IMG/VR virus record: IMGVR_UViG_3300032093_000893
Location: 1 to 22,814 of that record
Origin: a virus
DNA length: 22,814 nucleotides
Reading direction: 5' to 3' (one strand)
A program made the translations under genes and the position numbers. The stretch's first letter is position 1. Every line of letters starts with the position of its first letter. Positions 2,807 to 21,780 of the stretch are shown in pieces. The notes beneath the pieces were generated by a model. The model was not told where the DNA came from. It worked only from the letters and a program-made list of their open reading frames with translations, and made no database searches.

Positions 2807-5800
2807 TATAGATTTTGTCCTGAAATAAGAGCATACCAATTTGTTCCGCCATCATGAGTAAAGAAGAAGAATAAATCTTTTCTACCGTTTGTTGCTGTTA
2901 TAGTTGGCGCCGTATCGTTTGGCCAATTAAAACTTCCTGGCCAATTAACTGTTCTTGTAGTTCCATCTGCAGTAAACAACACCGCAAAGGAACTGACGTT
3001 GTTAGTTAGTTCAACATTGTTTACTGTTAATGTTACAATATCACTATTTAACGTCACATAAAAGAAATTCGCCAATCGAAGATCTAATGTTAGTGCACTT
3101 CCTGAAATTGTCGGATTAGCCGCATAATGAACATAAGAATTAGAGGCAAATATATTCGCGCTCAATTCACCAATTGATGGTTGGAATTGCAATTTACTAG
3201 TTGCAACATTTGGCGTCAACGTGCCAGAAGTTGACGTTGTGAAAACAGGATAATGAATTGTAGCAGAACTAACTTGATCTATAATGTTAGATCCTACACC
3301 AGCAGCACCTTGTACGCCTTGCGGACCTTGAGCACCAGTTGCACCAGTGGTTGCAGTAACTTGCCAAGTTGATCCATCGTAAATAAATTCAACAGAAACG
3401 TTTTCAATGTCAAGAATTACATCATCGGCAACACCTTCAATAGTTGAGCCATTTCTTGCGACCGTAAGATTATTTACTGACCAATCCCCAGCGCCATCTG
3501 CAATTTTAATATAATTGCCTGTTGATGGTGTTGCTGGAAGCGTAATTGTAAATGCTCCGCCAGAAGTGTCTGCAATAATTTGATCATTGTTGACTGCGGT
3601 GTAGTTTGCCGTTTTAACTGTCCAACCACTACCGCCACCACCAGAAGCACCTTGAACACCTTGAGCACCCTGTACACCTACGCCAGTTGCACCTTGTACG
3701 CCCTGAGCACCTTCAGCACCTTGAACGCCTTGTGCACCTTGAGCGCCAGCAGCACCTTGTTCACCTTGGGCTCCATTAGAGCCAGCAGCACCCTGTGCAC
3801 CTACAGCACCTTGAGCGCCTTGTACACCTTGAGCGCCTTGAGCGCCAGCAAAGCCAGTCGCACCTTGAGCACCTACAGCACCTTGTTCACCTTGTGCACC
3901 AACAGCGCCTTGTGCGCCAACAGCGCCTTGAGCACCTTGAACGCCTTGAGCGCCTTGAGCACCAGCAGAACCTGTCGCGCCCTGAACCCCTTGTGCACCT
4001 TGAGCACCTACAGCACCTTGAGTACCAGCAGCACCTTGAACACCTTGCGCGCCTTGTGCACCCTGTGCACCTGCTGTTCCTTCTGCGCCCTGTACACCTT
4101 GAGCACCCTGTGCACCCTGTGCACCTTGAGCACCAGCAGAGCCAGTTGCACCTTGAACGCCTTGAGCGCCTTGTGCACCAGCAGAACCTGTCGCACCTTG
4201 AACGCCCTGAGCGCCTTGTGCACCAGCAGCACCTGCTGCGCCTTGAGCGCCAGCAGCGCCCTGAGCACCAGCAGCACCTTGTTCACCTTGAGCACCAGCA
4301 GCACCTGCTGCGCCTTGAGCGCCTGTCGCGCCTTGTACACCCTGAGCACCTTGTGCGCCAGCGGAACCTGCCGCACCTTGCACACCTTGAGAACCTGTTG
4401 CGCCTTGAGCACCCACAGCACCTTGTTCACCTTGTGCACCAACGACACCTTGCGCACCCTGTGCACCAATCGCACCTTGAGCACCTACAGCACCTTGAGC
4501 ACCAGCGGCACCTTCAGCGCCTTGAACGCCCTGAGAACCCTGTGCGCCGACGGCACCCTGTGCACCAACAAGACCTTGTGCACCCTGAACCCCTTGTGCT
4601 CCTTGAGCGCCAACAGCACCTTGTGCGCCAGTTTCACCTTTCGCTCCAGCATCGCCTTGAACGCCTTGTGCTCCATTGTCTCCTTTTTGACCTTTCTCAC
4701 CTTGTGCTCCTTGAGCGCCAGTCGCGCCTTGAGCACCATCAACGCCATTTGTACCCTGTACGCCTTGAAAACCTTGAGCGCCTTGTGATCCTGCAGTGCC
4801 TGCTGCACCTTGAACGCCTTGAAAACCTTGTGCACCTTTATCACCAGCGTCACCAGTACGAACCAAAGAAATGACAACAGCAGTTGTATTTGCAAAGTTT
4901 GTTACACCAGTATTCCATGCAACTGGAACATTGAAGTGATCGTCGTCGTGAATGTGATTGCCGTTAATACTGAAGAAGGCAAATTCGTTTACATTTGCAG
5001 TGTTTGCTAATTTAAACGTACCTTTAATTGTTGATGTGGAATCATCAATTGTTTGAATAAAGTTATAAATGTTTGCGCTTGTTGAATCATTGAAACTAAT
5101 ATACAACGTATTTGCAGTATTAAATGGATTGGCATTAAATTGTAAATGACCAGAACCTAGTGTTGCAGGATCATCTGTTTGAATTCTAAATTCGTATTCA
5201 AACGACGCACCACCGAATTCGCCAACGTCACCCTTTGTACCTGTTGAACCTTGAACGCCCTGCGCACCCTGTGCGCCAGTTTCACCTTTATCTCCAGTCG
5301 CTCCTTGTACGCCCTGAGAACCTGTTGCGCCTTGAGCACCAGTAGCACCTGCTGAACCTTGCACACCCTGCGCGCCAGTTTCACCTTTATCTCCAGTCGC
5401 TCCTTGTACGCCTTGTGCGCCTGTATCCCCTTTTTGACCTTTTTCACCTTGTGCGCCTTGAGCGCCGACAGAACCTTGAACACCTTGAGCGCCTTGTGAA
5501 CCAACAGCGCCCTGTGCACCAACAGCGCCTTGAGCACCTTGAACACCTTGAGCGCCTTGTGAACCAACAGCGCCCTGTGCACCAACAGCGCCTTGAGCAC
5601 CTTGAATGCCTTGTGCGCCCTGAGAACCAACAGAACCTTGTGCGCCCTGAACACCCTGCGCGCCTTGAACGCCTTGTGCACCCTGAGAACCAACAGAACC
5701 TTGTGCGCCCTGAACACCTTGAGCACCAGTAGCACCTTGCTCACCTTGCGCACCATTAGTGCCAGCAGCGCCTTGAATGCCCTGCGCGCCTTGCGCTCCA

Positions 5801-5937
5801 GTTGCACCTTGAACGCCTTGAGCACCCTGCGCACCTTGAGCGACCCATGCACCAGATGCAGCATTGTATACCCACGTTCGATTATTATAGGTATATGAAT
5901 CGTTATCTACTGGTGAATTTGGGAAATTAATTGCCAT
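2806..5937 (-). CDS. Collagen-like tail-fibre protein (1043 aa) with C-terminal beta domains
   Basis: Residues 1-33 repeat the N-terminal module of the giant fibre ([20 protein letters not shown]). Collagen-like tracts at 34-239 and 363-765 flank one type A globular domain at 240-362. A GGGGSG hinge follows. Residues 772-860 form a domain starting [20 protein letters not shown] and containing [20 protein letters not shown] know this type from many phage fibres and tailspikes. A short triplet stretch (863-880) leads to the C-terminal region 881-1043, which contains [20 protein letters not shown] and ends [20 protein letters not shown]. This is a typical distal fibre domain of marine phages. 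Triplets are A/V/S/T-rich, with almost no F, H or R. Its stop overlaps the next start as TAATG. A weak AGAG ribosome site lies 7 nt before the ATG. Confidence 0.9.
4852..5220 (-). other. Inter-collagen globular domain, type A, of 1043-aa fibre
   Basis: Residues 240-362. It is entered by [17 protein letters not shown], has the core [18 protein letters not shown], then [19 protein letters not shown], and leaves through [11 protein letters not shown]. Confidence 0.75.
5473..5603 (-). repeat. 63-bp perfect tandem repeat in the collagen tract
   Basis: Positions 5478-5540 and 5541-5603 are identical by eye over all 63 bases, with the match extending 5 nt further to the left. The unit encodes seven Gly-X-Y triplets. 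Identity at synonymous sites points to a recent duplication. Confidence 0.85.
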
Positions 5938-5963
5938 TATTTAACTCTGTGTTTAGGTAAATG

Positions 5964-5971
5964 TATTTATT
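5964..5971 (-). promoter_or_regulatory. Candidate late-promoter box AATAAATA before the 1043-residue fibre gene
   Basis: It sits in the 42-nt gap 5938-5979, 26 nt before the ATG at 5937. It has the same eight bases as the box before the 1601-residue gene and matches the T4 late box TATAAATA at seven of eight positions. No terminator hairpin is apparent in this gap. Confidence 0.55.
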
Positions 5972-5979
5972 TTTAAAAG

Positions 5980-6348
5980 TTAAACTGGTTCTTCAATTTC
6001 AACCCAACTCAACGTTGGTTCATCCCAGCGGTATAATTTACCATCATCTGGTTTTGATACGGGTGCAATCCAAGTTGCAGTATCATTATCTAATACCCAA
6101 GAAGAGTAGGGTTTTGGTGGAACGAATGCATCTAATTCAACATTATATGTGTAACCAACACCAGCATAACGTTTACGGAAATTTCCATTGTATGATGTTT
6201 GTTTCCAAGTACCGCCTAAAAGACGTTCGCAAAATGCTGCTCCGATGTGCTCTTTTTCCACACCATTTGCATCTGCTGTGTCTGTGTTCGCAACAACAAT
6301 AACTTGTGTCACTACATTATTTTCATCTAGCTGTGCAAAATGTGCCAT
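5980..6348 (-). CDS. Small conserved marine-phage protein (122 aa), probably tail/fibre associated
   Basis: The product begins MAHFAQLDENNVVTQVIVVA and continues through GAAFCERLLGGTWKQTSYNG, FRKRYAGVGYTYNVELDAFV and PPKPYSSWVLDNDTATWIAP. It ends PDDGKLYRWDEPTLSWVEIE. I recognise this as a recurrent small protein of marine T4-like phages, usually beside structural genes and without assigned function. It has no signal peptide, membrane segment or catalytic motif. The evenly spaced W and Y residues (KPYSSW, TATWIAP, YRWDE, LSWVE) suggest a small beta-sheet binding domain. It lies directly upstream of the promoter-like box of the 1043-residue fibre, so it probably ends the preceding operon segment. 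Confidence 0.75.
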   Translation of the reverse strand: MAHFAQLDENNVVTQVIVVANTDTADANGVEKEHIGAAFCERLLGGTWKQTSYNGNFRKRYAGVGYTYNVELDAFVPPKPYSSWVLDNDTATWIAPVSKPDDGKLYRWDEPTLSWVEIEEPV

Positions 6349-6354
6349 TTTATT

Positions 6355-6960
6355 TTAATCTCCTAAGATTAACTCTGTTAACGAATCAGTAACACCAAGT
6401 TTTCCTTTCAAAAAAGTATTAAAGGATAAACTAATTCTTGTCTCTTCATGATCTACCGTCTGAACCATATGTGTAAGTGAAGAAGGAAACATTACAAGTT
6501 TTCCTATTCCAACTTCAAACCACCATGATTTAGAATTTGAAACATTCCATTCTTTCGCTTCAACATCAATCATTTTATAACCATCATTATAAAAATAAAT
6601 TCTGTCTTTTGTTATATCAGCATTCAAATATAAAACGCCAGAAATAAAAGAATTTGGATGAGCATGCTTATGATGAAATTGACCTTTACCTGTATAATTA
6701 ATCCAAGACTGCGTTACATACAACTTTAAATCTTCTTTTGGTTGATGTATCGTTTGAAAATAATTATTTACAGAAGTCGTCACAAATTCTTTTAACTTTT
6801 TAAATTCCTTTAGTTCTAAAACGTTATAATTTTTACTTGTTTGATTTCCCTCGTTTGGTCTACGTTCTAATTTTGTAAATGTATCAATTTCTTTTTTAGT
6901 AAATTCTCGTTCAAGTTCAACAATGCCAACTGTCGTTGGAAAAATATTATATGTTTTCAC
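6355..6960 (-). CDS. 2OG-Fe(II) oxygenase superfamily protein (201 aa)
   Basis: This gene encodes a probable Fe(II)/2-oxoglutarate-dependent dioxygenase of the compact phage type (2OG-FeII_Oxy_5-like). Visible landmarks are QSWINYTGKGQFHHKHAHPN at about 84-103, SFISGVLYL at 104-112, GKLVMFPSSLTHMVQ at about 153-167 and the terminal ETRISLSFN at 173-181. By family logic the metal ligands come from the His cluster at 96-101 and from His164, and Arg175 would bind 2-oxoglutarate. Such enzymes hydroxylate or demethylate protein, nucleic acid or small-molecule substrates; this one's substrate is not evident. It starts with GTG at 6960. Its last codons carry the ribosome site of the next gene. It sits among fibre genes, so a virion protein is a possible but unproven target. 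Confidence 0.85.
   Translation of the reverse strand: MKTYNIFPTTVGIVELEREFTKKEIDTFTKLERRPNEGNQTSKNYNVLELKEFKKLKEFVTTSVNNYFQTIHQPKEDLKLYVTQSWINYTGKGQFHHKHAHPNSFISGVLYLNADITKDRIYFYNDGYKMIDVEAKEWNVSNSKSWWFEVGIGKLVMFPSSLTHMVQTVDHEETRISLSFNTFLKGKLGVTDSLTELILGD
6359..6364 (-). promoter_or_regulatory. Shine-Dalgarno AGGAGA for the 122-aa gene
   Basis: It lies within the last codons of the oxygenase gene, 10-11 nt before the ATG at 6348. The two genes are separated by only 6 nt. Confidence 0.65.
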
Positions 6961-6967
6961 AGTATCA

Positions 6968-6973
6968 TCCTTT
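6968..6973 (-). promoter_or_regulatory. Shine-Dalgarno AAAGGA that supports a GTG start
   Basis: AAAGGA lies 7 nt upstream of the GTG at 6960 and overlaps the TAA stop of the 82-aa gene. It supports GTG as the start of the oxygenase gene, since no upstream in-frame ATG with a better site is apparent. Confidence 0.7.
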
Positions 6974-7220
6974 AAGTTTGTTGTGAATCAAATTGCCCCA
7001 CAATTTCTGCTAATTGTTCATCTGTCCAAATAGTATGTATTGAATCTTCAAAAGCCTTGATTTTTTCTAGTGTTTCTTCAACTTCTTCTTTTGTTGGTTG
7101 TGGTCGTGGATCATCCCAACGAGTAAAACCTACGCCACCTGTCCACTCCCATTTTGCTCCTGGGCGAAGAAGATCCATTGCCGTATCAATTCCATAAAAA
7201 CGATAAATTTTTGCTTGCAT
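6972..7220 (-). CDS. Small conserved phage protein (82 aa), function unknown
   Basis: The sequence starts MQAKIYRFYGIDTAMDLLRP, then GAKWEWTGGVGFTRWDDPRP, and ends in a charged helix (PTKEEVEETLEKIKAFEDSI...WTDEQLAEIVGQF). The pattern of an aromatic beta part, a W-x-DPRP-x-P-T-x-EEVE turn and one long helix is one I associate with small proteins in tail-fibre regions of marine myoviruses. It also superficially resembles the XkdW type of small tail proteins of other phages. No enzyme motif is seen. It lies between the glycine-rich protein and the 2OG oxygenase gene, whose ribosome site overlaps its stop codon, so the two are co-transcribed and probably coupled. Function is unassigned. Confidence 0.72.
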   Translation of the reverse strand: MQAKIYRFYGIDTAMDLLRPGAKWEWTGGVGFTRWDDPRPQPTKEEVEETLEKIKAFEDSIHTIWTDEQLAEIVGQFDSQQT

Positions 7221-7224
7221 TTAA

Positions 7225-7232
7225 ATCACCTC
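7225..7232 (-). promoter_or_regulatory. Strong Shine-Dalgarno GAGGTGAT for the 82-aa gene
   Basis: It lies in the 14-nt gap before the ATG at 7220, with GAGG 8 nt from the start codon. It is the best ribosome site in the window and stands out against the nearly SD-less collagen genes. Confidence 0.75.
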
Positions 7233-7234
7233 AA

Positions 7235-8938
7235 TTACGCATTAAGTTTTAGAATAACGATACCTGAACCGCCGTTGCCGCCTGCACTATTCGAATCGCC
7301 AGCATTATCGTCCCAAGAGGCACCACCACCGCCGCCACCAGTATTAGGGCTACCAGCAGATCCATTTGAATTGGATGATGGTCCTGCGTTGCCGCCGCCG
7401 CCTGCGCCGCCAGTACCACCCGTTCCACTAATTCGATATCCACCTCCGCCGCCGCCACCAGCATATGTGACTGATGTTCCTGTTATAGATGATGCAGTGC
7501 CATTACCACCATCACCACCATGACCTGCACCGTCTGTATTTCCATTTTCTCCAGCTGCACCTGCACCTCCCCCGCCACCAACTCCAGTATTTGGATTTAC
7601 TGTTGGGCAATTTCCGCCATTATTTCCTTGACTTGGCGATGTGCTTGGAGTGTTACCAGTTCCACCACTTGTGCCTGACAATCCAGAACCACCACCAGAA
7701 CCACCATTTCCAGCAGACACAGCAGGTGTGCCTGCTCCACCTTTACCACCTCTTGTGCTAGTGATAGTGCTAAAAACAGAGTCATTACCATCAGAACCAA
7801 CATTATAACCGCCCTGCGCACCACCACTACCACCAGCACCAACAGTGATTGTATAGGTCTGGCCAGCAGTTACTGCAAATCCAGTTCCAGTTCTAAATCC
7901 ACCTGCTCCACCGCCACCACCATATCGAGATCCTCCTCCTCCACCACCAGCAACAACAAGATAGTCAACAGACGTCACACCAGTTGGGCAAATCCATTCT
8001 GCTGTGGAATTGAATACTTGTACACCTGTTGCTGGCATTGTATATTTGAGGATGACGATACCAGAGCCGCCAGTGCCACCAGTGATATTTGCTGAAAAAT
8101 TATAACCACCACCACCACCGCCGCCACCAGTGTTAGTTTCTCCAGCTGTTCCTGATGGTCCAGTTCCACTACTTGTTGATGCTCCTGCACCACCGCCACC
8201 TGTTCCTCCTGCGCCGCCTGCACCAGTTCCCGGACTATCTATACCAGATCCGCCACCACCGCCAGCATAAGTCACTGACGTGCCTGTTATTGAAGATGCA
8301 GCACCAGTGCCACCATCACCACCATTACCAGTGCTTGGGCTTCCAGCATTACCAGCAGCGCCTGAACCACCACCGCCGCCTCCGCCACCAAAACCACTTC
8401 CACCATTATTTCCTTGTGATGGACTTACCGATGGTATATTTCCTGATCCGCCAGCATTTGGTGAATTTCTTCCACCACCACCACCTGAACCACCATTAAA
8501 TCCAGCACCCAAACCACCACCACCACCGCCAGCAGAAGTGATTGTATCAAAAACTGAACTAGTTCCATTTGCGCCATTATATGGCGCAGTGTCATCGCCT
8601 CCACCTGCTCCACCAGAACCAATCGTAATTGTATAAGTGTTTCCAGCAGTCACTGGATATGAAGATCCTATTCTAAATCCACCAGCACCACCACCACCTG
8701 CTCCATTTCTAGATGCACCACCGCCACCACCAGCAACGACAAGGTATTCAACTTCAGTCACACCTTCAGGCGCAACCCATAAACCAGACTGTTTAAAAGT
8801 GAGAATTACTGTTTTACCTGGTGGAGTAAAATTCCAATTCGGATTTCGATTTGTACTTGGATTTGTGAGTGCATAACGAACAGCGCCGTTCGCACTCATC
8901 GCAGAAATACCCTGAATTGAATATAACTTAATGCCCAT
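7235..8938 (-). CDS. Glycine-rich two-repeat adhesin-like protein (567 aa)
   Basis: After an N-terminal segment of about 50 residues (MGIKLYSIQGISAMSANGAV, NPNWNFTPPGKTVILTF) come two tandem copies of one glycine-rich domain. Copy 1 covers about residues 54-299 and copy 2 about 315-565. Each starts W-x-(A/C)-P-x-G-V-T-x-V-(E/D)-Y-L-V-V-A-G-G-G-G. Each contains an AGGFR...VTAGxTYTITxGxGG stretch and SSITGTSVTYAGGGGG, and ends GGSGIVILK. Glycine runs reach eight residues. Such glycine-rich domains are widespread in phage and bacterial surface proteins. Polyglycine-II helix bundles are known in a gp38-type phage adhesin (Salmonella phage S16), so a receptor-binding tip is plausible, though homology to gp38 is not shown. 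The ATG follows the preceding stop by 5 nt, with a weak ribosome site. Confidence 0.8.
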   Translation of the reverse strand: MGIKLYSIQGISAMSANGAVRYALTNPSTNRNPNWNFTPPGKTVILTFKQSGLWVAPEGVTEVEYLVVAGGGGGASRNGAGGGGAGGFRIGSSYPVTAGNTYTITIGSGGAGGGDDTAPYNGANGTSSVFDTITSAGGGGGGLGAGFNGGSGGGGGRNSPNAGGSGNIPSVSPSQGNNGGSGFGGGGGGGGSGAAGNAGSPSTGNGGDGGTGAASSITGTSVTYAGGGGGSGIDSPGTGAGGAGGTGGGGAGASTSSGTGPSGTAGETNTGGGGGGGGYNFSANITGGTGGSGIVILKYTMPATGVQVFNSTAEWICPTGVTSVDYLVVAGGGGGGSRYGGGGGAGGFRTGTGFAVTAGQTYTITVGAGGSGGAQGGYNVGSDGNDSVFSTITSTRGGKGGAGTPAVSAGNGGSGGGSGLSGTSGGTGNTPSTSPSQGNNGGNCPTVNPNTGVGGGGGAGAAGENGNTDGAGHGGDGGNGTASSITGTSVTYAGGGGGGGYRISGTGGTGGAGGGGNAGPSSNSNGSAGSPNTGGGGGGASWDDNAGDSNSAGGNGGSGIVILKLNA

Positions 8939-8943
8939 GTTTA

Positions 8944-9276: not shown

Positions 9277-12200
9277 TTAAGCACCCATGAGTAAGAAAGG
9301 ATGGAGAACCTCAGCACCAGCACCTGTGGCACCTTGTACACCTTGCGCGCCAGCAGGACCTTGTGGACCAGCAGTTCCAGCGATTACAAATACGTCAACG
9401 TTTGCATTTGCATCTGGTGCGCCATCAAAAGTGAGTGTTGTTGAAGATACGTTATATTCGTTATTTCTTTGAAGAACGCGATCAACAAAGACAAGAGCGT
9501 GATCTTCATTAAATGGTGTCGTTGTAAGTGTAAAGTCAACAGCAACGCCATTTGCAAGGAATGAATTTCTTGTTACAGAAATTGCTGCTGAACCAGAGTC
9601 CCCCTTATCTCCCTTTGTGCCTGTTCCTGCTGCGCCTTGAACACCCTGAGAACCCTGAGCGCCAGCAGTACCCTGAACACCTTGGAATCCTTGAGCACCT
9701 TGTGGACCACCTGATGCACCTTGTACACCTTGGAATCCTTGTTCGCCCTTTGCGCCAGTTGCACCAGTTGCACCTTGAGCGCCAGCAGTACCAGTAATAT
9801 GATAAGCATCAATTACGTCATTTGTATCTGGCGCCACATCAAACGATAGAGTCGTAGAACTTACATTGTATGCGCTGTTACGTTGGAATACATTGTTAAC
9901 GAATACAAGCACTTGATCTTCATTAAGTGGTGCAGTTGCCAAAGTAAACGAATTTGTATTACCATCACCAACAAAAGAATTTCTTGCTACAGCAATTGCT
10001 GCTGCAGCAGAACCAGGCGCGCCTTGTACGCCTTGGAATCCTTGAGCACCTTGTGCACCGCCGCCACCGCCACCGCCGCCTGAGCCAGCAGGACCAACTT
10101 CTACCCATTGAGTGCTGTCGCCGTCGTTGATATATTTGAATAGCAATCCAAGGTCAGTATCAAACCATTCATCACCCTCTGCTGGCGACACTGGTGCTGT
10201 TGCACCACTTGTGTAGATCACAGCACCTGTAGGAATCTCACCTTTAGCGCCTTGCACACCCTGTGCACCTTGTATACCTTGAGAACCTTGTGCACCTTGT
10301 GCGCCAACAGAACCTTGAACGCCTTGTTCACCTTGAGCGCCCTGAGAACCAACAGCACCTTGAGCACCTTGTACGCCTTGAGTACCTTGAGCACCGACGG
10401 CACCTTGTTGACCTTGAGAACCTTGTACGCCTTGAGAACCTTGTGCGCCCTGAACGCCTTGAGCACCCTGAGAACCAACAGAACCTTGAGCGCCTTGCAC
10501 ACCTTGAGCGCCCTGAGAACCAACAGCACCTTGAGCACCTTGAACGCCTTGAGCGCCCTGAGAACCAACAGCACCTTGAGCACCAACAGCGCCCTTATCG
10601 CCTGATCGTGCAAATTCAATTACGAGACCTTCACCGCTTGATGGACGTGCGCCAGAAACATACGTTACATCATATTCAACCCATCCAACATTATCAACAA
10701 GACTATTGATTTGGAATATTGTTGAAGTAGGATCGCTAGGATTATTTGATTTAATAATCAAGTAGCCCTTAACAGCATTTGTTGAATCATCAGCAGTTAA
10801 GAGATATGCGCTAAAGTCTGTTGATGTGACATCTAGATCGCTGATGGCTACTTTTGTTACACTACCAATTGCTGAATTATTATAACGAATTAATCCAGTT
10901 CCTGGATCCGCCATCGTTACCGTTGTATTGAACGTATAACGCAATCCACCTTTATCGCCTGTTGAGCCTTGTGCGCCTTCTGTACCTTGTGCACCGACAG
11001 CTCCTTGTGCGCCTTGTGCACCCTGTACGCCCTGGAATCCTTGTTCACCCTGCGCACCAACAGCGCCTTGTGCGCCTTGTGCACCTTGAACGCCTTGAGA
11101 ACCTTGATGTCCTTGATAACCTTGTTCACCCTGCGCACCGACAGCACCTTGAGCGCCTTGCACACCCTGTGCTCCCTGCTCACCTTGTGCACCAACAGCA
11201 CCCTGTACGCCTTGATCGCCCTGAGCACCAACAGCACCTTGTTCACCCTGAGCACCGACAGCACCTTGTGCGCCAGTCGCACCTTGAACACCTTGTGGAC
11301 CAGTGTCACCAACGTCACCAGTTCGCGCAAACGTGATTATAACATCATCATTATTATTTGGAGACCAACCGCTACCAGAAAGATAAGCACAGTTAGCGGT
11401 GAAGTAACCTGAATTATTTGTAAGAGCAGATATGGTATAAAATGCAAAACTTGTAGAATCAAACTTTGCTGAAATTCTAAAGTGACCCTTGATCGTCGAT
11501 GTTGAATCGTCGATTGTTGTTAAGAAATTTTGAATGTCAGTTGAACCGTCATCTAAATTATCAATATAAAGTTGTGTTGCAAGCGCAAGTACACTATTGT
11601 TTAATTTTAAACGTCCAGTTCCAGGATCTGTTGCATTTGTGTTAGTATCAAAAGTATAATCAAAAGTTGCGCCACCAAAGTTACCATCACGACCTTGTGC
11701 ACCTTGAACGCCCTGAGCACCTTGAGCACCTACTTCACCTTGTACACCTTGATCGCCCTGCACACCTTGTGAACCTTGAGCGCCAACAGAACCCTGTGCA
11801 CCTACGTCACCTTGTACGCCTTGTGAACCTTGTTGACCTTGGTGTCCCTGATGACCTTGATCGCCTTGCACACCTTGTGCACCTTGTACACCCTGTTCGC
11901 CCTGTGGTCCTTGTACACCTTGATGACCTTGAACGCCTTGAGCACCTTGCTGACCTTGTGAACCTTGAATGCCTTGTTCACCTTGGTGTCCTTGGAAACC
12001 TTGTTCACCCTGCACACCTTGTGCACCCTGTGCACCTTGTGCACCTTGACGTCCTTGTTCACCCTGGAATCCTTGGAGTCCTTGCGCACCTTGAACGCCC
12101 TGTTCACCTTGACGTCCCTGATGACCTTGTGCTCCTTGCTCACCTTGGAAACCCTGCTCACCTTGATGACCTTGATGACCCTGGAAGCCTTGCTCACCTT

Positions 12201-14082
12201 GGAAACCTTGATCGCCTTGATGCCCTTGATGACCTTGCTCGCCTTGATAACCTTGATGACCCTGATCACCTTGACGTCCTTGTGCTCCTTGAACGCCTTG
12301 GAAACCTTGTGCTCCCTGTTCGCCTTGGAATCCTTGGTGTCCTTGTTCACCTTGGAAACCTTGATCGCCTTGATGTCCCTGATGACCTTGCTCGCCTTGG
12401 AAACCTTGATGACCTTGTGAACCTTGTTCGCCTTGACGACCTTGAGCACCTTGCTCGCCTTGCGCACCAATAGTGCCTTGAACACCTTGATAACCTTGTG
12501 CGCCCTGTTCACCTTGAACACCCTGGAAGCCCTGTTCACCTTGATGACCTTGATGACCTTGAACTCCTTGGAAACCTTGAGCGCCTTGCTCTCCTTGAAC
12601 ACCCTGGAAGCCCTGTGCTCCCTGCTCACCTTGTGCACCAACAGCACCTTGTATACCTTGATAACCCTGCTCACCCTTGTCGCCGCGATCACCAGTACGC
12701 ACAAACGAAAGTGTTACCGCAGTTGTATTTGCTAGGTTTGATATACCACTTGTCCAAGCAACTGGAACATTGAAGTGATCTAGATCATTAGTGTGTAATC
12801 CATTAATACTGAAGAATGCAAACTCACTAACGTTTGCTGTGTTAGCAATCTTAAACGTGCCCTTGATTGTTGACGTTGAATCATCAATCGTTTGCAAGAA
12901 GTTGAATACATTCGCTGAATTTTGATCAAGGAAACTAATGTATAATGTGTTTGCTGTATTAAATGGATTTACATTAAACTGTACTAATCCATTTCCAAGA
13001 TTAACTGGATCGTTAGTTTCGACTCTGAATTCATATTCAAAAGATGCACCGCCAAATTCACCAGTTTCACCTTTGGCGCCAGTTGTACCTTGTACACCTT
13101 GATTTCCTTGAACACCTTGAAAGCCTTGAGATCCTTGTTCACCCTGTACGCCTTGAAAGCCTTGAGATCCTTGTTCACCCTGTACGCCTTGGAAGCCTTG
13201 TTCACCCTGATGACCCTGATGACCTTGTACACCCTGGAAACCTTGTGAACCTTGTGCACCTTGTTGACCCTGTGAACCTTGAACGCCTTGTTCGCCTTGG
13301 TGTCCTTGGAAGCCTTGTGAACCTTGTTCACCCTGTACGCCTTGGAAACCCTGAGAACCCTGAGCGCCCTGGTGTCCTTGAGCGCCTTGCACACCTTGGA
13401 ACCCTTGCTCGCCTTGATGACCTTGGAAACCTTGTGCGCCTTGAGCACCTTGTACGCCTTGTTCACCTTGGTGTCCTTGGAACCCTTGCTCACCTTGATG
13501 TCCCTGATGACCTTGTTCACCTTGGTGTCCTTGGAACCCTTGCTCACCTTGATGACCTTGTGAGCCTTGTACGCCCTGTTCACCTTGATGACCTTGGAAA
13601 CCCTGTGAACCTTGTTCACCCTGCACACCTTGAGAACCTTGACGCCCCTGATGACCTTGCTCGCCCTGTACGCCTTGAAAACCTTGTGCTCCCTGCTCGC
13701 CTTGATGACCCTGGAAGCCTTGCTCACCTTGGTATCCTTGCGCGCCTTGTTCACCCTGTACACCTTGAGCACCACCAACAGTTGGTGTAAAAATACTTAC
13801 TGTATTGCCAGAAACTGTAACAATAGAAACGCCACCTGGATCGCCAACGATTTTAAGTGTATCGTTATTTGAAGAAGGTGAAATAGAGGCAGTTGTGTTG
13901 GCTACATTTTTAAAGACAGAATCGTTTAATGCGCTGTTTGCTCGGCTTTCTGTATTTGTGAGGCGAGCCTGCACGTTTGTGCCATCCACAAATACTGTAT
14001 TCGCATTTAATGTTTGGGCAATGACTGTTGTATCTACGGTTACATTACCATAAATTCGTGTATTGCCTTGTAATTTTGCCAT
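9277..14082 (-). CDS. Collagen-like tail-fibre protein (1601 aa) with three inter-collagen domains and a duplicated C-terminal beta domain
   Basis: Residues 1-103 form an N-terminal segment ([40 protein letters not shown]) unlike that of the other two fibres. Collagen-like tracts are at 104-341, 465-799, 923-1044 and 1161-1281, separated by globular copies at 342-464, 800-922 and 1045-1160. Residues 1284-1331 hold a module ending [19 protein letters not shown], followed by an eight-glycine hinge at 1335-1342. Two copies of one beta-rich domain follow at about 1359-1433 and 1498-1571 ([16 protein letters not shown] and [16 protein letters not shown]). This domain resembles those common in phage fibres. 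The protein ends in LHPFLLMGA. The first half has E/F/H/R-rich triplets and the second half A/V/S-rich ones, so the gene looks mosaic. Little Shine-Dalgarno is visible. Confidence 0.9.
10603..10950 (-). other. Divergent inter-collagen globular domain, copy 3 of 1601-aa fibre
   Basis: Residues 1045-1160. It begins [10 protein letters not shown] without the FGGA[ST]F entry, and the core is drifted to [16 protein letters not shown]. It ends [11 protein letters not shown]. It keeps the ADPGTG, NNS and YVSG landmarks of type B, so it is a distant paralogue. Confidence 0.65.
11317..11685 (-). other. Inter-collagen globular domain, type B, copy 2 of 1601-aa fibre
   Basis: Residues 800-922. It is entered by [15 protein letters not shown], has the core [17 protein letters not shown], then [20 protein letters not shown], and leaves through [13 protein letters not shown]. 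Confidence 0.75.
12691..13059 (-). other. Inter-collagen globular domain, type A, copy 1 of 1601-aa fibre
   Basis: Residues 342-464. It is entered by [17 protein letters not shown] and has the core [18 protein letters not shown], then [20 protein letters not shown]. It leaves through [11 protein letters not shown]. It is closest to the single copy in the 1043-residue fibre. Confidence 0.75.
13115..13186 (-). repeat. 36-bp perfect tandem repeat
   Basis: Positions 13115-13150 and 13151-13186 are identical by eye. The unit encodes four Gly-X-Y triplets (GSQ, GFQ, GVQ and GEQ in some rotation). It is a direct trace of unit-by-unit growth of the collagen tract. Confidence 0.8.
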
Positions 14083-14112
14083 TTTTTAAATTTTACCCAA
14101 TTGGTTATCTAA

Positions 14113-14120
14113 TATTTATT
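14113..14120 (-). promoter_or_regulatory. Candidate late-promoter box AATAAATA before the 1601-residue fibre gene
   Basis: This box lies in the longest intergenic gap of the window (14083-14125, 43 nt). It matches seven of eight bases of the T4 late box TATAAATA and sits 30 nt before the ATG at 14082. The rest of the gap is AT-rich, and I see no convincing terminator stem; CCAATTGG at 14097-14104 is only a short palindrome. Confidence 0.55.
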
Positions 14121-14125
14121 TTACT

Positions 14126-14977
14126 CTAAAACCCATATCGAGTTTTAGTTAGATCATAATTTTGTTTAATTTCATCTGCAGTTAATGTTACATCATAAGT
14201 AAGTGCTTGCGACATTCTACCATTTAATAAATTACCACCAGCGCTAAAACAGGCTATATTTGTGGAACCATCTCCTGGTAATGCAGTAGTCCAAGAATAT
14301 GTGCTATCTTGAGTACCATTTACATATAATGTAAAACCAACTGCAACATCAAACGTTAATGCTACATTATACCACTTGTTTAAATCAAATGTTGCTGTAG
14401 AACCATATGCCATAAAATTGCCAAAATTTGTATGCCCTGAATAAACTTTATTTGTCGAAGTTCCGAAATATAAAAAATGTCCACTCGTACCGCTGATTAA
14501 ATTATTATCATTATAAGCGTTTAAATAAAACCAAACTTGTTTCGTATAGTTATTCGCGCCAAGAACTCTTCCACTGCTCGTCCCATATTGATTTGAACCA
14601 TTAAATGTAAAATACCTTGGCGAACTATTTGTAAATGTTGGACTATTATATAATGTTACGTCATTTGCAGTTCCAGCACTTATGTCAAACCAAGTTGATC
14701 CAGAGTTTGGATAACTTGCATTTTCTTCAGCATCTAATTGTAATGTCAATCCTCGCGTTACAATATTAATTTCATTAAAAATATTTGCAACTAAAATTCG
14801 ACCATCATTTGTTTTTCTTTGCGCTAAACCGTTCGTCAATGGACTAATTGTCACTTCATCAAACTCGGCAGCGCGCAAATATGTTTTGCTTTCACTGATT
14901 GTCGATTGAGTAACTTCATCAAGTGAACTAAAAACATTTAACGTGCCGTCACTTTTTATTTGCGAAGATCTTGCCAT
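14126..14977 (-). CDS. LamG/concanavalin A-like lectin-fold virion protein (283 aa)
   Basis: The N-terminal ~90 residues (SDGTLNVFSSLDEVTQS, then NGLAQRKTNDGRILVANIF) look like a virion-attachment segment. From about residue 95 the protein has features of the LamG-like jelly-roll superfamily: GLTLQLDAEENASYPNSGST, WFDISAGTANDVTLYNSPTF, YFTFNGSNQYG, then KWYNVALTFDVAVGFTLYVN around residues 205-225, and a C-terminal GRMSQALTYDVTLTADEIKQ. These match the usual order of strands in such domains, which often bind glycans. The ATG lies 2 nt after the stop of the giant fibre gene, with no clear Shine-Dalgarno, so translation is probably coupled. It is a likely carbohydrate-binding fibre or baseplate protein. 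Fold confidence is good; ligand unknown. Confidence 0.82.
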   Translation of the reverse strand: MARSSQIKSDGTLNVFSSLDEVTQSTISESKTYLRAAEFDEVTISPLTNGLAQRKTNDGRILVANIFNEINIVTRGLTLQLDAEENASYPNSGSTWFDISAGTANDVTLYNSPTFTNSSPRYFTFNGSNQYGTSSGRVLGANNYTKQVWFYLNAYNDNNLISGTSGHFLYFGTSTNKVYSGHTNFGNFMAYGSTATFDLNKWYNVALTFDVAVGFTLYVNGTQDSTYSWTTALPGDGSTNIACFSAGGNLLNGRMSQALTYDVTLTADEIKQNYDLTKTRYGF

Positions 14978-14979
14978 AA

Positions 14980-17900
14980 TTAGATAAACACTGTATCAAT
15001 GCTATTTTCTGAATCGTTATAATATTGATAGGCAACAATTACTCCAGTTGTATTCTTATACTGAACATTTGCAGCAGCAAGTTTATTCGTTGACAACATA
15101 TTGCTTGCGGTGTTAAACGTCAAGTCTGCATCACCACCAAACACACCATTGTTGTTAAACAATACTTGAGTGTTTGTCGTATTTGCTAGTGGTACACTGA
15201 ACGTTACACTTTGTGGTACTGAATTACCATTTCCGCTGATAAGAATATTATCACCAGAAATTAAATTGACAGTATCGAGACCAGAAGCAACAAGTTGATT
15301 GACGCCATTTACTTGCCAGTTCTTGAACGTACTATTAAGTTGAATAGTGACGGTGTTAGAACTTTCATCAACAACAGCCATTCCCGAATCAGCGTCGAAC
15401 TGAATCGTATTGATGTTGCTAAATGTATTAACAACAGTATTGTTGCCTGCATAAACTTCTTTAATCGTAATTGGTGCATTGGCTTTATCGTACGCATTAT
15501 TGGCTTGTAGATATGCAGCATTGGCTTGACCATATGCATTACCAGCAGCAGTTGTTGCAGTATTTGCTTGGTCATAAGCACCACCAGCTTGTGTTCGAAC
15601 ATCATCAAATGAGTAGAACGTTGTGCCATTGTCTGACCAACCCCACTTGTCTGTATTTTCATTCCAGCGCAAGAAGGTGTCTGGTTGATCCCCACGATTA
15701 ACTGTTACACTTGCATTAAGCGATGGTGCACCAGTTGCATTTGAGTTGAGGATGATTTCATTGTCTTCAACAAGCAACGTCTCAACATTAAGTGTCGTGC
15801 TGTTGCCAAGTATTTCAAGATTACCTTGAACAACAAGGCTACCTGTAATCGTACCACCAGCAATGTTAAGTTTTAGATTTGCTTCAGCATATGCAGCATT
15901 GGCTTGATCGTAAGTCTGACCAATTAATGCTTCGAGGTTTGCATTATTTTGACCAATGAAAACCGTATTCGCAATAATACCGTTTGTTGAGACATTACCA
16001 TCAACACTACTAATTATAGCATTGCCAAGGAAGATTGAGTTGTTGCTCAAATAAATGTCACGGAAACGATTGGTGCTTGTACCGATATCGTAGGTAACAT
16101 TTGACTCAGGAACAATATTTCTTGTTGTTAATAGTCCAGATACACTTACATTATTATTAAATTGAGCATTGCGTGTCGTAAATGTATTTGATGCAAGATC
16201 AAATGTTAAGTTAGCAGAACCAGCTGGGTTGTCTTGATTATTGAATACAATTTGTGTATTCTGTCCAGCAACTGGTCCAACTTCACCCTGTACGCCTTGG
16301 AAACCTTGCTCACCTTGAGCGCCAACAGTGCCTTGCACGCCTTGGAAACCTTGCTCACCTTGGAATCCTTGGAAGCCCTGCTCACCTTGTGCACCAACTT
16401 CGCCTTGAACGCCCTGTTCGCCTTGATAGCCTTGACGTCCTTGAGAACCTTGTACACCTTGAGCGCCTTGGTGTCCCTGAGATCCTTGAATACCTTGAGC
16501 GCCTTGAGCACCAACAGTACCTTGTACACCTTGGAAGCCTTGAGCGCCTTGCTCTCCTTGACGCCCTTGAGCACCTTGTACGCCTTGGAAGCCTTGTGCT
16601 CCTTGCTCACCTTGGAATCCTTGTTCGCCTTGATGACCTTGAGCGCCTTGTACGCCCTGGAAGCCTTGCTCACCTTGTACACCTTGGAATCCTTGTTCGC
16701 CCTGATGACCTTGTTCACCCTGACGCCCTTGTGATCCTTGTACACCTTGGAAGCCCTGTTCGCCTTGACGCCCTTGGAATCCTTGCTCACCCTGATGACC
16801 TTGGAAGCCTTGTGCTCCTTGCTCACCTTGTGCACCAATCGTTCCTTGAACGCCTTGGAAACCTTGTGAACCTTGTACGCCCTGGAATCCTTGCTCACCT
16901 TGATGCCCTTGGAAACCTTGTTCACCTTGGAATCCTTGTTCACCTTGGAAACCTTGGTGTCCTTGGAAACCTTGTTCGCCTTTATCGCCACGATCACCAG
17001 TACGAACGAAAGAAATCGTTACATTCGTTAGATCAGTGAAACTTGTTACGCCACTAGTGTGTGCAACAGGAACGGAGAAGTAATCGGCAACATGAGCATG
17101 TGTACCATTGATGCTAAAGAAAGCAAATTCGTTTACGTTTGCAGTGTTGGCAATTTTAAAACTACCTTTGATTGTCGAAGTTGAATCGTCAATCGTTTGT
17201 AGATAGTTGAATACATTTGCGCTGTTACTGTCAACAAAATCAATATACAATCTTGTTGCAGTTGAAATGTCTGCGGAATCAAATTTTAGATTAGCAATAC
17301 CTGGATCAGTGTTTGCAGTGTTTGACAAGAAGATGTATTCAAACGATGCTCCACCAAATTCACCGATTTCACCTTTCTGTCCTACAAGACCTTGATTACC
17401 TTGTACACCTTGGAAGCCCTGTTCGCCTTGGTATCCCTGATGACCTTGAACGCCTTGGAAGCCCTGTTCGCCTTGGAAGCCTTGGAAGCCCTGTTCGCCT
17501 TGGTATCCCTGATGACCTTGAACGCCTTGTGCTCCTTGTACACCCTGAGCTCCTTGTACACCTTGTGCCCCTTGAATACCTTGGAAGCCCTGTTCACCCT
17601 GAACACCTTGTTCACCTTGACGTCCTTGTGCACCTTGAATACCTTGATTACCCTGTACACCTTGATGACCTTGAACGCCTTGAGCGCCTTGAACACCCTG
17701 CTCGCCTTGAACGCCCTGTTCACCTTGACGTCCCTGATGACCTTGAACGCCTTGAGCGCCTTGATAACCCTGTTCACCTTGGAAACCTTGTGAACCTTGT
17801 TCACCTTGGCGACCCTGATGACCTTGAACACCTTGAACACCTTGTTGTCCTTGAACGCCTTGGAAACCTTGTGAACCTTGTTCACCTTGATGTCCCTGGA

Positions 17901-20900
17901 ATCCTTGATCGCCTTGATGACCTTGGAATCCTTGTTCACCTTGGCGACCCTGTGCACCTTGAACACCTTGTGCGCCTTGATAACCTTGCTCACCTTGGAA
18001 ACCTTGAGCGCCTTGCTCGCCTTGGAATCCTTGGTATCCTTGTTCACCTTGGTGTCCTTGATGACCCTGTGATCCTTGAACACCTTGGAATCCTTGGGCA
18101 CCTTGTTCACCTTGGAATCCTTGAGCGCCTTGTTGACCTTGTGAACCCTGACGTCCTTGTGAACCTTGTACACCCTGTTCGCCTTGGAAACCTTGAGCGC
18201 CTTGTTCACCCTGACGTCCTTGAACGCCTTGATGACCTTGAACACCTTGGAAACCCTGTTCACCTTGTGTTCCTTGGAAACCTTGTTCGCCTTGTGTACC
18301 TTGAGATCCTTGTACACCTTGGAAGCCCTGTTCGCCTTGATGACCTTGATAACCTTGCTCACCTTGGAAGCCTTGTGAACCCTGCTCGCCTTGAACGCCA
18401 GCAAAACCTTGTTCACCTTGATAGCCCTGCTCACCCTGATGACCTTGGAAACCTTGATCGCCTTGTGTTCCTTGGAAACCTTGTTCACCTTGACGACCCT
18501 GTGCACCCTGCACACCCTGTTCACCCTGTACGCCTTGGAAGCCTTGTGAACCTTGCGTGCCTTGCACACCTTGGAAGCCTTGTTCGCCTTGACGTCCCTG
18601 ATGACCTTGAACACCTTGCGCACCTTGTGCACCTACATCGCCACGATCGCCAGTGCGAGCAAATGTAATTAATACATCATCATTGTTACTGAACGATGAA
18701 TCTGCTCCCGAAACATAACTACAATCTACTTCAAAATAATTGTTTTGTACAGCAAGAGAAGAAATTGTGTAGAGAATATAGTTGTTTGAATCAAACTTAC
18801 TTGTAACTCTAAAATGTCCTTTAATTAATGATGTTGAATCATCAATTGTAATAAGGAAGTTATAAACGTTTGATGTATTGTCATCAAGATTGTCAATATA
18901 AAGTTTATTGACTGCGGTTAGATCTGCATTATTAAATCTTAAGAAGCCACTTCCTGGATCAGTATTTGCAGTGCTGCTGCTATAGGTGTAATCAAATGTG
19001 GCGCCACCAAAGTTGCCGTCGCGACCTTGATAACCTTGCGAACCTTGTACACCTTGTGCTCCTTGCTCACCTTGAGCGCCTTGGCGTCCTTGGAAACCTT
19101 GCTCACCCTGACGTCCTTGTGCACCCTGTGCTCCCTGTACGCCTTGGAAGCCTTGTGCTCCTTGCTCACCTACAAGACCTTGTAAACCTTGTGCACCCTG
19201 CACTCCCTGTTCACCTTGTGGTCCTTGGAAACCTTGTTCACCCTGACGCCCCTGATGCCCTTGAACACCTTGTGCGCCTTGAATGCCTTGGAAACCTTGT
19301 GAACCCTGTACACCTTGTGCACCTTGACGTCCCTGGAAACCTTGTTCACCTTGAGCGCCCTGTCGACCCTGTTCACCTTGGAAACCTTGCAAACCTTGAG
19401 CGCCTTGAACACCTTGCTCACCCTGTACGCCTTGTTCACCCTGTCGTCCTTGGAAACCCTGCTCACCTTGACGACCCTGGGAACCTTGCTCACCTTGACG
19501 TCCCTGTGCACCCTGTACACCTTGGAAGCCTTGATTTCCTTGATCACCTTGATGACCTTGGAAACCTTGTTCGCCCTGAACACCTTGCGCGCCCTGCACG
19601 CCTTGTTCACCTTGACGCCCTTGAGCACCCTGTACACCTTGGAAACCTTGTTGACCCTGTACACCTTGTGCACCCTGTACACCTTGGAAACCTTGTTGCC
19701 CTTGAACGCCCTGGAAGCCTTGCTCGCCCTGAACGCCTTGTTCACCCTGTACCCCTTGGAAACCTTGTTCACCTTGTACACCTTGGAAACCTTGTGAACC
19801 TTTATCGCCTTGATCGCCAGTGCGAACAAATGTAATATACAATTCAGTGTTTGATGCGAATGCTGTTCCTACAAGTGTTGATTGTAGCAATGCAACTGGT
19901 ACAGCAAAGTAACCATTTTGATGAGCATGTGAACCATTAATAGAATAGTAGACATATTCATTGGTGTTTGCAACATTTGCAGCTTTAAAGTGACCTTTGA
20001 TTACTGATGTTGAATCGTCAATTGTTTGCAAATAGTTGTAAGAGTTTGCACCATCAGCATCGATGGTGTCAATGTACATGAACGTAGCAGTAGAAAGATT
20101 TGAATTATTAAATGCTACATTTGCGATACCAGGATCAGTATTTGATGTGCCTGTTTGATAGAAATAGTCGAAAGTCGCGCCACCAAAGTCGCCAACTTCA
20201 CCTTTAGAACCTACAGATCCTTGTACACCTTGGAAACCCTGTTCACCTTGGAAACCTTGTGCTCCTTGAGCACCTTGTGCACCTTGAACGCCTTGGTGAC
20301 CTTGAACGCCCTGTGCACCTTGTGCGCCCTGACGACCTTGTTCACCTTGATAACCTTGAGAACCTTGCTCGCCTTGGAAACCTTGATGACCCTGCTCACC
20401 TTGACGTCCCTGTTCACCTTGACGACCTTGATTACCTTGAACGCCTTGCTGTCCCTGTCTGCCTTGAGCGCCTTGTACACCTTGGAAACCTTGTTCACCC
20501 TGTACACCCTGCTCACCTTGACGTCCTTGCTCTCCTTGAACGCCTTGGAAACCTTGTTCACCTTGACGACCTTGTTCACCTTGACGACCTTGAGCGCCCT
20601 GGAAACCCTGAGCGCCTTGAATACCTTGTGGACCTTGATCACCAATATCGCCAGTACGAGCAAATGTGATAATAACTTGTGTATTGTTACCAAATGTCGA
20701 TACGGAACCTTCAACATACGCCGCATTAACAGTAAAGTATCCTGAATTTTCCGTAAGAGAAGAAATCGTGTAAATAGCAAATTCAGACGTAGCACCACGT
20801 TCAGATACTTTAAAATGACCTTTTAGCGTTGATGTTGAATCATCAATTGTTCTTAAAAAACTTTGAATATCATTATTTTCAGTATCAACATCGTCAATGT

Positions 20901-21780
20901 AAAGCGTATTTGCTAAACTTAATTGAGAATTGTTGAATTTTAGATAACCTGCTCCTGGGTCAGAAGCAGTTATATTGTCTGAGAAGGAATATTCAAAAGA
21001 TGCGCCGCCAAAGTTACCATCGCGACCTTGAAAACCTTGTGCGCCTTGTTCGCCTTGATGACCCTGTGATCCTTGTTCACCTTGACGACCTTGTGCACCT
21101 TGTTGACCTTGAACGCCTTGTGCGCCCTGTATACCTTGGAAACCTTGTGATCCTTGTTCGCCTTGGTCTCCTTGTACGCCTTGGAAACCTTGTTCGCCTT
21201 GATAACCTTGATCGCCCTGAACCCCTTGGAAACCTTGTGAGCCCTGCTCACCTTGCGCACCGACAGCACCTTGAATGCCTTGATTACCTTGCGCACCGAC
21301 AGCACCTTGTACACCTTGATGACCTTGTATACCTTGTGCGCCAGTTGAACCTTGAACACCCTGTGCACCTTGGAATCCTGCTTCACCCTGAGGTCCTTGA
21401 TCGCCAGCTAAACCTGTACCGCCAGTTTCGCCTTTATCGCCTTTATCTCCAGTTGCACCTTGTACGCCTTGGAAACCTTGCTCACCTTGGAAACCTTGGA
21501 AGCCTTGTTCACCTTGTTGTCCTTGTGAACCTTGAGCGCCTTGAACACCTTGTGCACCTTGTGTACCCTGAACGCCCTGATAACCTTGTTCACCAAAGTC
21601 GCCTTTTTGACCTTTTTGACCTTGTGCGCCTTGCTCGCCTTGTGCTCCAGCTAAACCTTGCGGACCTGTGACTGCTGATACAAGTTGATCCCAAGTTGCA
21701 CCATTCCACACATAGACTACATCCCCAACTGTAAACTGTTGGTTAACTACTGGTGAATCAGGAAAATTTGGTATTGACAT
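14980..21780 (-). CDS. Giant collagen-like tail-fibre protein (2266 aa) with four inter-collagen globular domains
   Basis: Residues 1-37 form a small N-terminal module ([15 protein letters not shown]...WNGATW) also found in the 1043-residue fibre. Collagen-like Gly-X-Y tracts lie at 38-253, 368-529, 656-919, 1045-1472 and 1597-1836, about 1310 residues in all. They are split by four copies of a globular domain at about 254-367, 530-655, 920-1044 and 1473-1596. The C-terminal 430 residues hold beta-structured fibre modules: [18 protein letters not shown] at about 1897-1914, [16 protein letters not shown] at about 1998-2013, [14 protein letters not shown] at about 2039-2052, and A-Y-x-Q-A-N repeats at 1957-1967 and 2068-2101. 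As I recall, these are typical of marine T4-like fibres. No Shine-Dalgarno is evident before the ATG, which lies 6 nt after the upstream stop. Likely a homotrimeric long fibre or whisker. Its length is exceptional; the receptor is unknown. Confidence 0.9.
16993..17364 (-). other. Inter-collagen globular domain, type A, copy 4 of 2266-aa fibre
   Basis: Residues 1473-1596. It is entered by [15 protein letters not shown], has the core [18 protein letters not shown], then [19 protein letters not shown], and leaves through [11 protein letters not shown]. Confidence 0.75.
17408..17529 (-). repeat. 50-bp perfect direct repeat inside the collagen tract
   Basis: Positions 17408-17457 and 17480-17529 are identical by eye and offset by 72 nt (eight Gly-X-Y triplets). 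This looks like a recent in-frame expansion of the fourth collagen tract. Confidence 0.8.
18649..19023 (-). other. Inter-collagen globular domain, type B, copy 3 of 2266-aa fibre
   Basis: Residues 920-1044. It is entered by [12 protein letters not shown], has the core [16 protein letters not shown], then [20 protein letters not shown], and leaves through [13 protein letters not shown]. Confidence 0.75.
19816..20193 (-). other. Inter-collagen globular domain, type A, copy 2 of 2266-aa fibre
   Basis: Residues 530-655. It is entered by [15 protein letters not shown], has the core [15 protein letters not shown], then [18 protein letters not shown], and leaves through [11 protein letters not shown]. 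Confidence 0.75.
20680..21021 (-). other. Inter-collagen globular domain, type B, copy 1 of 2266-aa fibre
   Basis: Residues 254-367. It is entered by [13 protein letters not shown], has the core [16 protein letters not shown], continues [12 protein letters not shown], and leaves through [13 protein letters not shown]. Confidence 0.75.

Follow-up and report, generated by a model that had tools for sequence, protein, structure and literature searches.

Three collagen-like fibre genes of the virus record IMGVR_UViG_3300032093_000893 (22,814 bases, analysed over its whole length and called the window below) encode proteins in which eight copies of one globular domain interrupt the collagen tracts. 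The junctions of this domain are marked by basic-Gly-acidic charge pairs, a feature that is newly described here. With little more than even confidence, we favour the view that the domain is an in-line trimeric bead, which would restart and clamp a nearly proline-free triple helix; the trimer, the holding of the register and the salt-bridge clamp are the elements that we infer, and the family, the predicted monomer fold, the borders, the enrichment of charges, the turnover of beads and the purifying selection are what the data show.

All eight copies named in an initial annotation of this DNA were found in place in the three genes, each consisting of 119–125 residues. The seven other copies are 28 to 76% identical to the first one, far above chance. 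DDST is present in all eight copies and RTGD in seven, and the full set of shared signatures (FGGA[ST]F[ED]Y, TIDDSTS and RTGD) occurs, as originally read, in all but one copy, the exception being the divergent copy B'. The two sets of type-specific motifs were recovered as well: SING-x-H and VPVA are found in all four type A copies, and TIS[SA]L, NN and ITFARTGD in all three type B copies. The adjoining collagen differs accordingly in the window, with KG[ED]xG[ED] at the entry of 4/4 A copies and RDGN at that of 3/3 B copies, while GDxGDKG follows 4/4 A but 0/3 B copies. The order of the copies, B-A-B-A in the 2266-residue protein and A-B-B' in the 1601-residue protein, was also read correctly. 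The collagen itself is unambiguous, since PF01391 (Collagen triple helix repeat) scored above its gathering threshold in all three proteins, with E values of 4.9e-92 to 4.3e-211. It contains only 12 prolines in 961 triplets, and Gln is the Y residue in 779 of these (81%). Lys is rare in this collagen; bead junctions account for half or more of it in the two longer proteins (4 of 8 in the 2266-residue and 4 of 6 in the 1601-residue protein, as compared to 2 of 9 in the 1043-residue protein).

Individual copies and the eight-copy profile, used as queries, retrieved relatives by the hundred. The profile search gave 454 full-length matches before the removal of overlap between loci, and 233 distinct copies of about 122 residues in 197 fetched loci and the window. 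A first, motif-seeded scan had confirmed at least 573 relatives, the best 80 of which were used. Since the seed pattern of that scan included T[IA]DDST, the conservation of the TIDDST motif is overstated, and the presence of DDST in 215 of the 233 harvested copies is partly owing to the seed. A 45-kb contig (L001, L079 and L192) carries all eight window copies at 100% protein identity and also encodes baseplate wedge subunits, as identified with PHROGs. Because of these subunits, we take the window, from gene content, to be the tail-fibre region of a baseplate-bearing tailed phage.

To describe the junctions, 251 entries and 254 exits from 159 representative open reading frames (ORFs) were compiled; this set of about 250 junctions contains some of the 233 distinct copies twice. 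Collagen tracts at the domain were compared with those at other non-collagen stretches (40 residues or longer) and with tract middles. Of the 221 tracts that start after the domain, 141 (64%) have a basic-Gly-acidic pair in their first three triplets, as compared to only 15 of 307 (5%) starting after other non-collagen stretches and 18 of 388 tract middles. Among tracts that lead into the domain, 53 of 225 have such a pair, against 24 of 319 that lead into other stretches and 23 of 388 middles. The Y residue of the exit triplet is Lys in 54% and Arg in 14% of cases, against 1.7–3.0% and 0.3–0.8% at a distance of at least eight triplets, and the next X residue is Asp or Glu in 85%, against 8–10% far away. 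On the entry side, Lys occupies position −6 in 28.5% of cases, against 1.7–1.9% far away. When types were assigned from the three nearest members of the tree described below (as was also done for the 14 mixed-type proteins and the alternation test), 49 of 50 A and 118 of 196 B copies had [KR]G[DE] near one junction or both. At the entry, the pair is present in 40/50 A vs 21/196 B copies, and an x-D-G-N entry in 0/50 vs 58/196. According to a review, KGE and KGD pairs raise the melting temperature of host-guest peptides by 15.4 to 17.5 °C, an effect ascribed there to interchain salt bridges (PMC7824840).

The tree was constructed from 164 non-redundant domain interiors, from which the first five and last six residues were excluded. 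Copies at least 85% identical to a kept copy, those with fewer than six flanking residues and those lacking a terminal R-x-G-[DN] were left out of the 233. The four window A copies fell into one 30-row group, with a Shimodaira–Hasegawa-like approximate likelihood-ratio test (SH-aLRT) value of 97, whereas the three window B copies were placed among the remaining rows and B' in a separate seven-row group (SH-aLRT 94). In a careful 83-row tree, the A split was supported at 93/86, slightly below the star threshold of the tool. The alignment has few columns and many forks are therefore unresolved; moreover, the tree has no outgroup, so that it places A on one side of a branch without showing B to be paraphyletic. 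Thus, of the two subfamilies proposed initially, A separates as one group, but B is simply what remains of the tree, and B' does not belong to B. The residue before RTGD is Val in 25 of 30 A copies and in 7 of 134 others. One copy in another contig (residues 386–508 of ORF L121_+2_1936, locus L121) was typed outside A and ends in FIVTGD, while its borders, KGETGE at the entry and RGDKGA at the exit, are A-like; from its sequence, it is possibly a hybrid. A conserved alternation of A and B across fibres, which had been envisaged, did not emerge, as 17 of 26 neighbour pairs were unlike and 18.2 were expected by shuffling. The order B-A-B-A was seen in 1 of 61 multi-copy proteins, 14 of which are of mixed type; seven multi-copy proteins with an untyped copy were excluded from the mixed set.

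In the 164-row set, the entry border follows the type closely. The residue at −1 is acidic in 25/30 A vs 14/134 other copies and Asn in 0/30 vs 57/134, and [KR]G[ED] occupies positions −6 to −4 in 23/30 vs 13/134. At the exit, GDKG is present in 7/30 vs 3/134 and [KR]G[DE] directly follows the domain in 27/30 vs 71/134. Mutual information with type peaked at positions −6, −4, −3 and −1 (z 11 to 18, with z below 4 at the other upstream positions), and on the exit side reached a maximum z of 7.4 at +7, the distant position +18 standing at z 5.6. Because relatedness inflates these values, we compared copies within the same protein. Among 14 representative mixed proteins, A exceeded B in acidic −1 residues in 13, with one reversed (sign test, p 0.0018), in [KR]G[ED] in 13, with one tie (p 0.00024), and in GDKG in 5, with 9 ties (p 0.0625); these sign tests are optimistic, since several of the 14 proteins are mutual relatives. 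An independent-pair test of border against type had no power, with 4 pairs on starred branches. The proposal that borders co-segregate with type thus holds for the entry, where it is limited to two triplets, but not for GDKG at the exit; GDKG is a mostly local mark, weak as a general exit mark of A, and [KR]G[DE] directly after the domain occurs in both types. Given that the type-linked entry stretch is six residues long, with background beyond, it represents a cap rather than a long cassette.

Comparison of related fibres revealed that the set of beads changes. A 2282-residue orthologue of the 2266-residue protein (L091; the same contig is also L122) is 78% identical to it over 36 N-terminal residues and 77% identical in the C-terminal region over 449 alignment columns. 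It carries the beads A-B-B, whose best matches are at 72, 81 and 71% and whose entries are KGEIGE, RDGN and RDGN, as compared to B-A-B-A in the window. The relatives of the 1601-residue protein in L098–L100 keep A-B-B' (92–93, 73 and 72%), and in the relative of the 1043-residue protein in the same loci, the A copy is nearest to a different window copy (66%). The window copies differ from each other at a proportion of synonymous differences (pS) of 0.60–0.79. Because synonymous sites are near saturation, the copies were not recently moved or duplicated within this genome; near-identical DNA, as expected of recently moved copies, is not seen between them. Seven related copy pairs from different contigs, with nonsynonymous (dN) and synonymous (dS) divergences of 0.06–0.21 and 0.77–1.84, are under purifying selection. 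The differing bead sets of L091 and the window, taken with the near-saturated synonymous sites, imply that beads are replaced over long times, short borders included. The notion that border and domain move as one cassette therefore survives for one clear orthologue case (L091) and a short border, not for a long cassette or for recent movement.

The domain matched no well-characterised family closely, in agreement with the initial annotation. No Pfam or NCBIfam model, including C1q-type and other collagen-partner domains, scored above its cut-off against the eight copies. When 143 family members were compared with Pfam, only five families were matched, by one to three members each (best E 0.0017), and in PHROGs, only phrog_35140, of unknown function, was matched (24 of 143 members at E ≤ 0.001). 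A PDB sequence search gave weak matches only, the best (E 0.028) to a part of an O-GlcNAcase. AlphaFold2 predicted both types with high confidence: the B copy with a predicted local distance difference test score (pLDDT) of 93.6 and a predicted template modelling score (pTM) of 0.88 (143 family members), and the A copy with 95.4 and 0.89 (104 family members). The two models share a nearly identical strand order and one longer helix. No known PDB fold stood out: the best Foldseek match of the B model had E 0.019 and a template modelling (TM) score of 0.36, and the VIA structure search reached at best Z 6.0 (B) and 5.9 (A), level with unrelated proteins. The Foldseek comparisons with PDB and BFVD cover the B model, and a fold overlooked by Foldseek is possible. 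In the open-access literature on phage-fibre collagen, collagen charge pairs and giant-virus collagen, as far as its available text extends, no description of the domain was found; most subscription papers and all bioRxiv preprints lie outside this search.

In BFVD, the B model matched 50 structures at E ≤ 0.001 (best TM 0.95), of which 26 belong to proteins named as collagens. Viral 'Collagen triple helix repeat' proteins (A0A6J5SZY5; Marseillevirus LCMAC102 A0A481YTC9; Indivirus A0A1V0SCQ2; Klosneuvirus A0A1V0SIY6) have the same predicted fold over 120–122 alignment columns, with TM 0.89–0.95 normalised to the query and 23–48% identity; the domain itself has neither name nor function there. 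Ranks 5, 9, 15, 16 and 20 are taken by proteins named as collagens of Marseillevirus LCMAC102, Indivirus and Klosneuvirus. On the predicted models, these five matches suggest that the bead crosses between bacterial and protist viruses. We take the genomes of these three viruses to be metagenome assemblies, so that mis-binning is possible. In seven large-contig records, Capsid_NCLDV was matched in none, but its control was silent everywhere, which makes the result uninformative on a giant-virus nature. Phage terminase was matched in 4 of the 7 at E ≤ 0.001 (2 above the cut-off), and T4 Gp23 in none of 4 records, where the control was silent as well.

Among the named phages that carry the domain are Pelagibacter phage HTVC010P, Actinomycetia phage DSL-LC01 and Caulobacter phage DMCA. 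The expectation of similar unnamed domains in phage proteins was thus borne out, but not their restriction to marine phages, as the named relatives come from lake, spring and creek in addition to Pelagibacter. In bacterial genomes, the domain was rarely seen: a motif-seeded scan of a genome collection confirmed one domain locus, and the domain was found in 7 of 385 genomes of one bacterial class, one of these being the genome of that locus. Of the eight bacterial-genome copies, five end in R-[TS]-G-[DN] and all in G-[DN], and the TIDDST motif varies. In these genomes, the domain is mostly not part of long collagen; in L210 and L211, for instance, it follows alanine-rich stretches that by eye resemble coiled coils.

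We propose that three fibre chains would fold side by side, and that at each bead three domain copies may meet and keep the chains in register. The bead would terminate one collagen triple helix and initiate the next; collagen of this kind, with hardly any proline and many Gly-X-Gln triplets, should depend on being restarted in this way. Beside the bead, the shift to charged Lys-Gly-Asp/Glu triplets might lock the helix ends through interchain salt bridges. Type A would mostly be clamped on both sides, and the other copies, when clamped, mainly at the exit, with 58 of 196 entering via x-Asp-Gly-Asn. Over longer times, beads are gained, lost and replaced in orthologous fibres, each retaining its own short border. 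Several observations weigh against this proposal. Seven of the nine collagen lysines of the 1043-residue protein are distant from its bead, and 78 of 196 B copies lack a charge pair at both entry and exit. The prediction of high confidence is that of a monomer, as would also be obtained for a non-trimerising bead, and the charges at the exit might pack against the domain itself rather than bridge chains. In L200, L201, L208, L210 and L211, no collagen tracts flank the domain, which is therefore not dedicated to collagen and, judging from its sequence contexts, is a general fibre domain, often but not only in collagen. The variable loops would equally fit a binding domain.

That the beads bind receptors, such as sugars, along the fibre, summing weak contacts with the collagen as a spacer and with different ligands for A and B, seems to us rather unlikely, although segments 41–49, 72–77 and 86–92 are the most variable (mean entropy 2.46–2.65 bits, vs 0.41 in TIDDSTS, a value lowered by the search seed), the copies of one genome differ strongly, beads turn over between orthologues and likely adhesins (Laminin_G_3, Gly-rich and RCC1-like proteins) are numerous in the operon. 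Conservation is highest at the entry, at the exit and in TIDDSTS, the seven pairs tested are under purifying selection, and there is no lectin or carbohydrate-binding Pfam match beside the weak PDB matches. Still less probable is a pure recombination cassette, in which similar flanking collagen permits homologous bead swaps and the borders are carried along as passengers, without a mechanical role. Copy number and order do differ between fibres with 77–80% identical ends (L091/L122 and the visible part of L120), borders remain with their type, and the long repetitive tracts supply homology; however, the type-linked entry stretch spans just six residues, the window copies include no recent duplicates at synonymous sites, and passenger borders would leave unexplained why charge pairs are found at this domain and are rare at other junctions.

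The match between border and type might also stem from common descent alone, if one ancestral A copy happened to carry KGE..E and passed it on. A forms one tree group, the independent-pair tests were without power and the 14 mixed proteins include mutual relatives, all in favour of this account; yet the entry residue (acidic, Asn or other) needs 29 changes on the tree and is therefore labile, while it still matches type within 13 of 14 proteins. Copies c216/c222 and c209 suggest that independent copies with Val before RTGD gained an acidic entry, but these two small cases are too few. We consider descent alone on the whole unlikely, and the L121 copy with its A-like border outside A shows that the match is imperfect either way. 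An extension of the restarting and clamping bead is likewise doubtful in our estimation: one portable trimeric bead in tailed phages and protist giant viruses might serve long, near-proline-free collagen, restarting the helix with its own salt-bridge cap, and its two subtypes, one with clamps on both sides and the other with a single clamp, might form stiff and yielding joints that evolution reshuffles.

Among known fibres, the putative tail fibre of Pelagibacter phage HTVC010P (KC465898, AGE60292), whose N-terminus matches tail-fibre PHROGs, has two nearly full domain copies like the window, but these are adjacent with no collagen tract between them, and only a short Gly-X-Y stretch follows. 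A paper on pelagiphage fibres reports fibre-specific repeat patterns, and its passages on these do not mention the present domain (PMC3909814). According to PMC3368898, phage collagens of pathogenic Escherichia coli form trimers with non-collagen trimerisation modules, and in prophage EPclB the Pf2 module (Phage_fiber_2, PF03406) likewise lies between two collagen tracts; PF03406 gave no match to the eight window copies at E ≤ 10. The T4 proximal long tail fibre gp34 would work comparably, as a thin trimeric shaft interspersed with wider β domains, but its shaft is a triple β-helix, not collagen, and no homology to the domain was found (PMC5537660). The Staphylococcus aureus phage 80α baseplate fibre FibU has a collagen-like stretch, as here; however, only residues 178–208 were predicted to be collagen-like, and density was seen for twelve copies (six dimers) where trimers were expected (PMC7048315). 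A domain of hundreds of viral contigs thus has no Pfam or NCBIfam model and no solved relative found by these searches. How bacterial and viral collagen is kept stable in the absence of hydroxyproline, and in this case of nearly all proline, is an old question that the junction rule makes accessible to tests with small recombinant pieces.

Table 1. Fibre genes, domain copies and borders in the window
Feature	Position	Strand	Basis or remark
1043-residue collagen-like fibre protein	2806–5937	−	ORF and collagen scan; 60% collagen triplets
1601-residue collagen-like fibre protein	9277–14082	−	58% collagen triplets; two DUF4183 stretches
2266-residue collagen-like fibre protein	14980–21780	−	59% collagen triplets
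Type A copy, 1043-residue protein	4849–5217	−	A group of tree
Type A copy, 1601-residue protein	12688–13056	−	motifs, identity, tree
Type B copy, 1601-residue protein	11314–11679	−	motifs, identity, tree
B' copy (divergent), 1601-residue protein	10597–10953	−	separate 7-row group, SH-aLRT 94
Type B copy 1, 2266-residue protein	20647–21012	−	motifs, identity, tree
Type A copy 1, 2266-residue protein	19813–20187	−	motifs, identity, tree
Type B copy 2, 2266-residue protein	18646–19011	−	motifs; AlphaFold2 model m3e5f9402ea04
Type A copy 2, 2266-residue protein	16993–17358	−	motifs; AlphaFold2 model m27afaab03a03
Entry cap KGDVGE, A copy, 1043-residue protein	5218–5235	−	two collagen triplets
Entry cap KGETGE, A copy, 1601-residue protein	13057–13074	−	
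Entry cap KGEVGD, A copy 1, 2266-residue protein	20188–20205	−	
Entry cap KGEIGE, A copy 2, 2266-residue protein	17359–17376	−	
Entry border QGRDGN, B copy, 1601-residue protein	11680–11697	−	
Entry border QGRDGN, B copy 1, 2266-residue protein	21013–21030	−	
Entry border QGRDGN, B copy 2, 2266-residue protein	19012–19029	−	
Exit cap AGDKGA, A copy, 1043-residue protein	4831–4848	−	
Exit cap RGDKGE, A copy, 1601-residue protein	12670–12687	−	
Exit cap QGDKGS, A copy 1, 2266-residue protein	19795–19812	−	
Exit cap RGDKGE, A copy 2, 2266-residue protein	16975–16992	−	

The main genes of the record all lie on the minus strand. Among the collagen genes, a 2OG-Fe(II) oxygenase (PF13759, phrog_81) is encoded at 6355–6960 (−), for which the border lysines would be possible substrates. 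Its role as a partner that modifies these lysines is unsupported: the gene has relatives in only 22 of the 198 loci that carry the domain (overlapping loci, with the window included) and in 5 of the 73 loci of at least 14 kb. A protein with a Laminin_G_3 or concanavalin-like lectin domain (14126–14977, −) lies between the two largest collagen genes. A 567-residue glycine-rich protein (PF21722, two matched stretches) is encoded at 7235–8938 (−), and an RCC1-like repeat protein of at least 752 residues (2–2257, −) runs off the end of the window. The two DUF4183 stretches are located in 9277–10230 (−), the C-terminal part of the 1601-residue protein, and ahead of this part the last long collagen tract ends in KGE.

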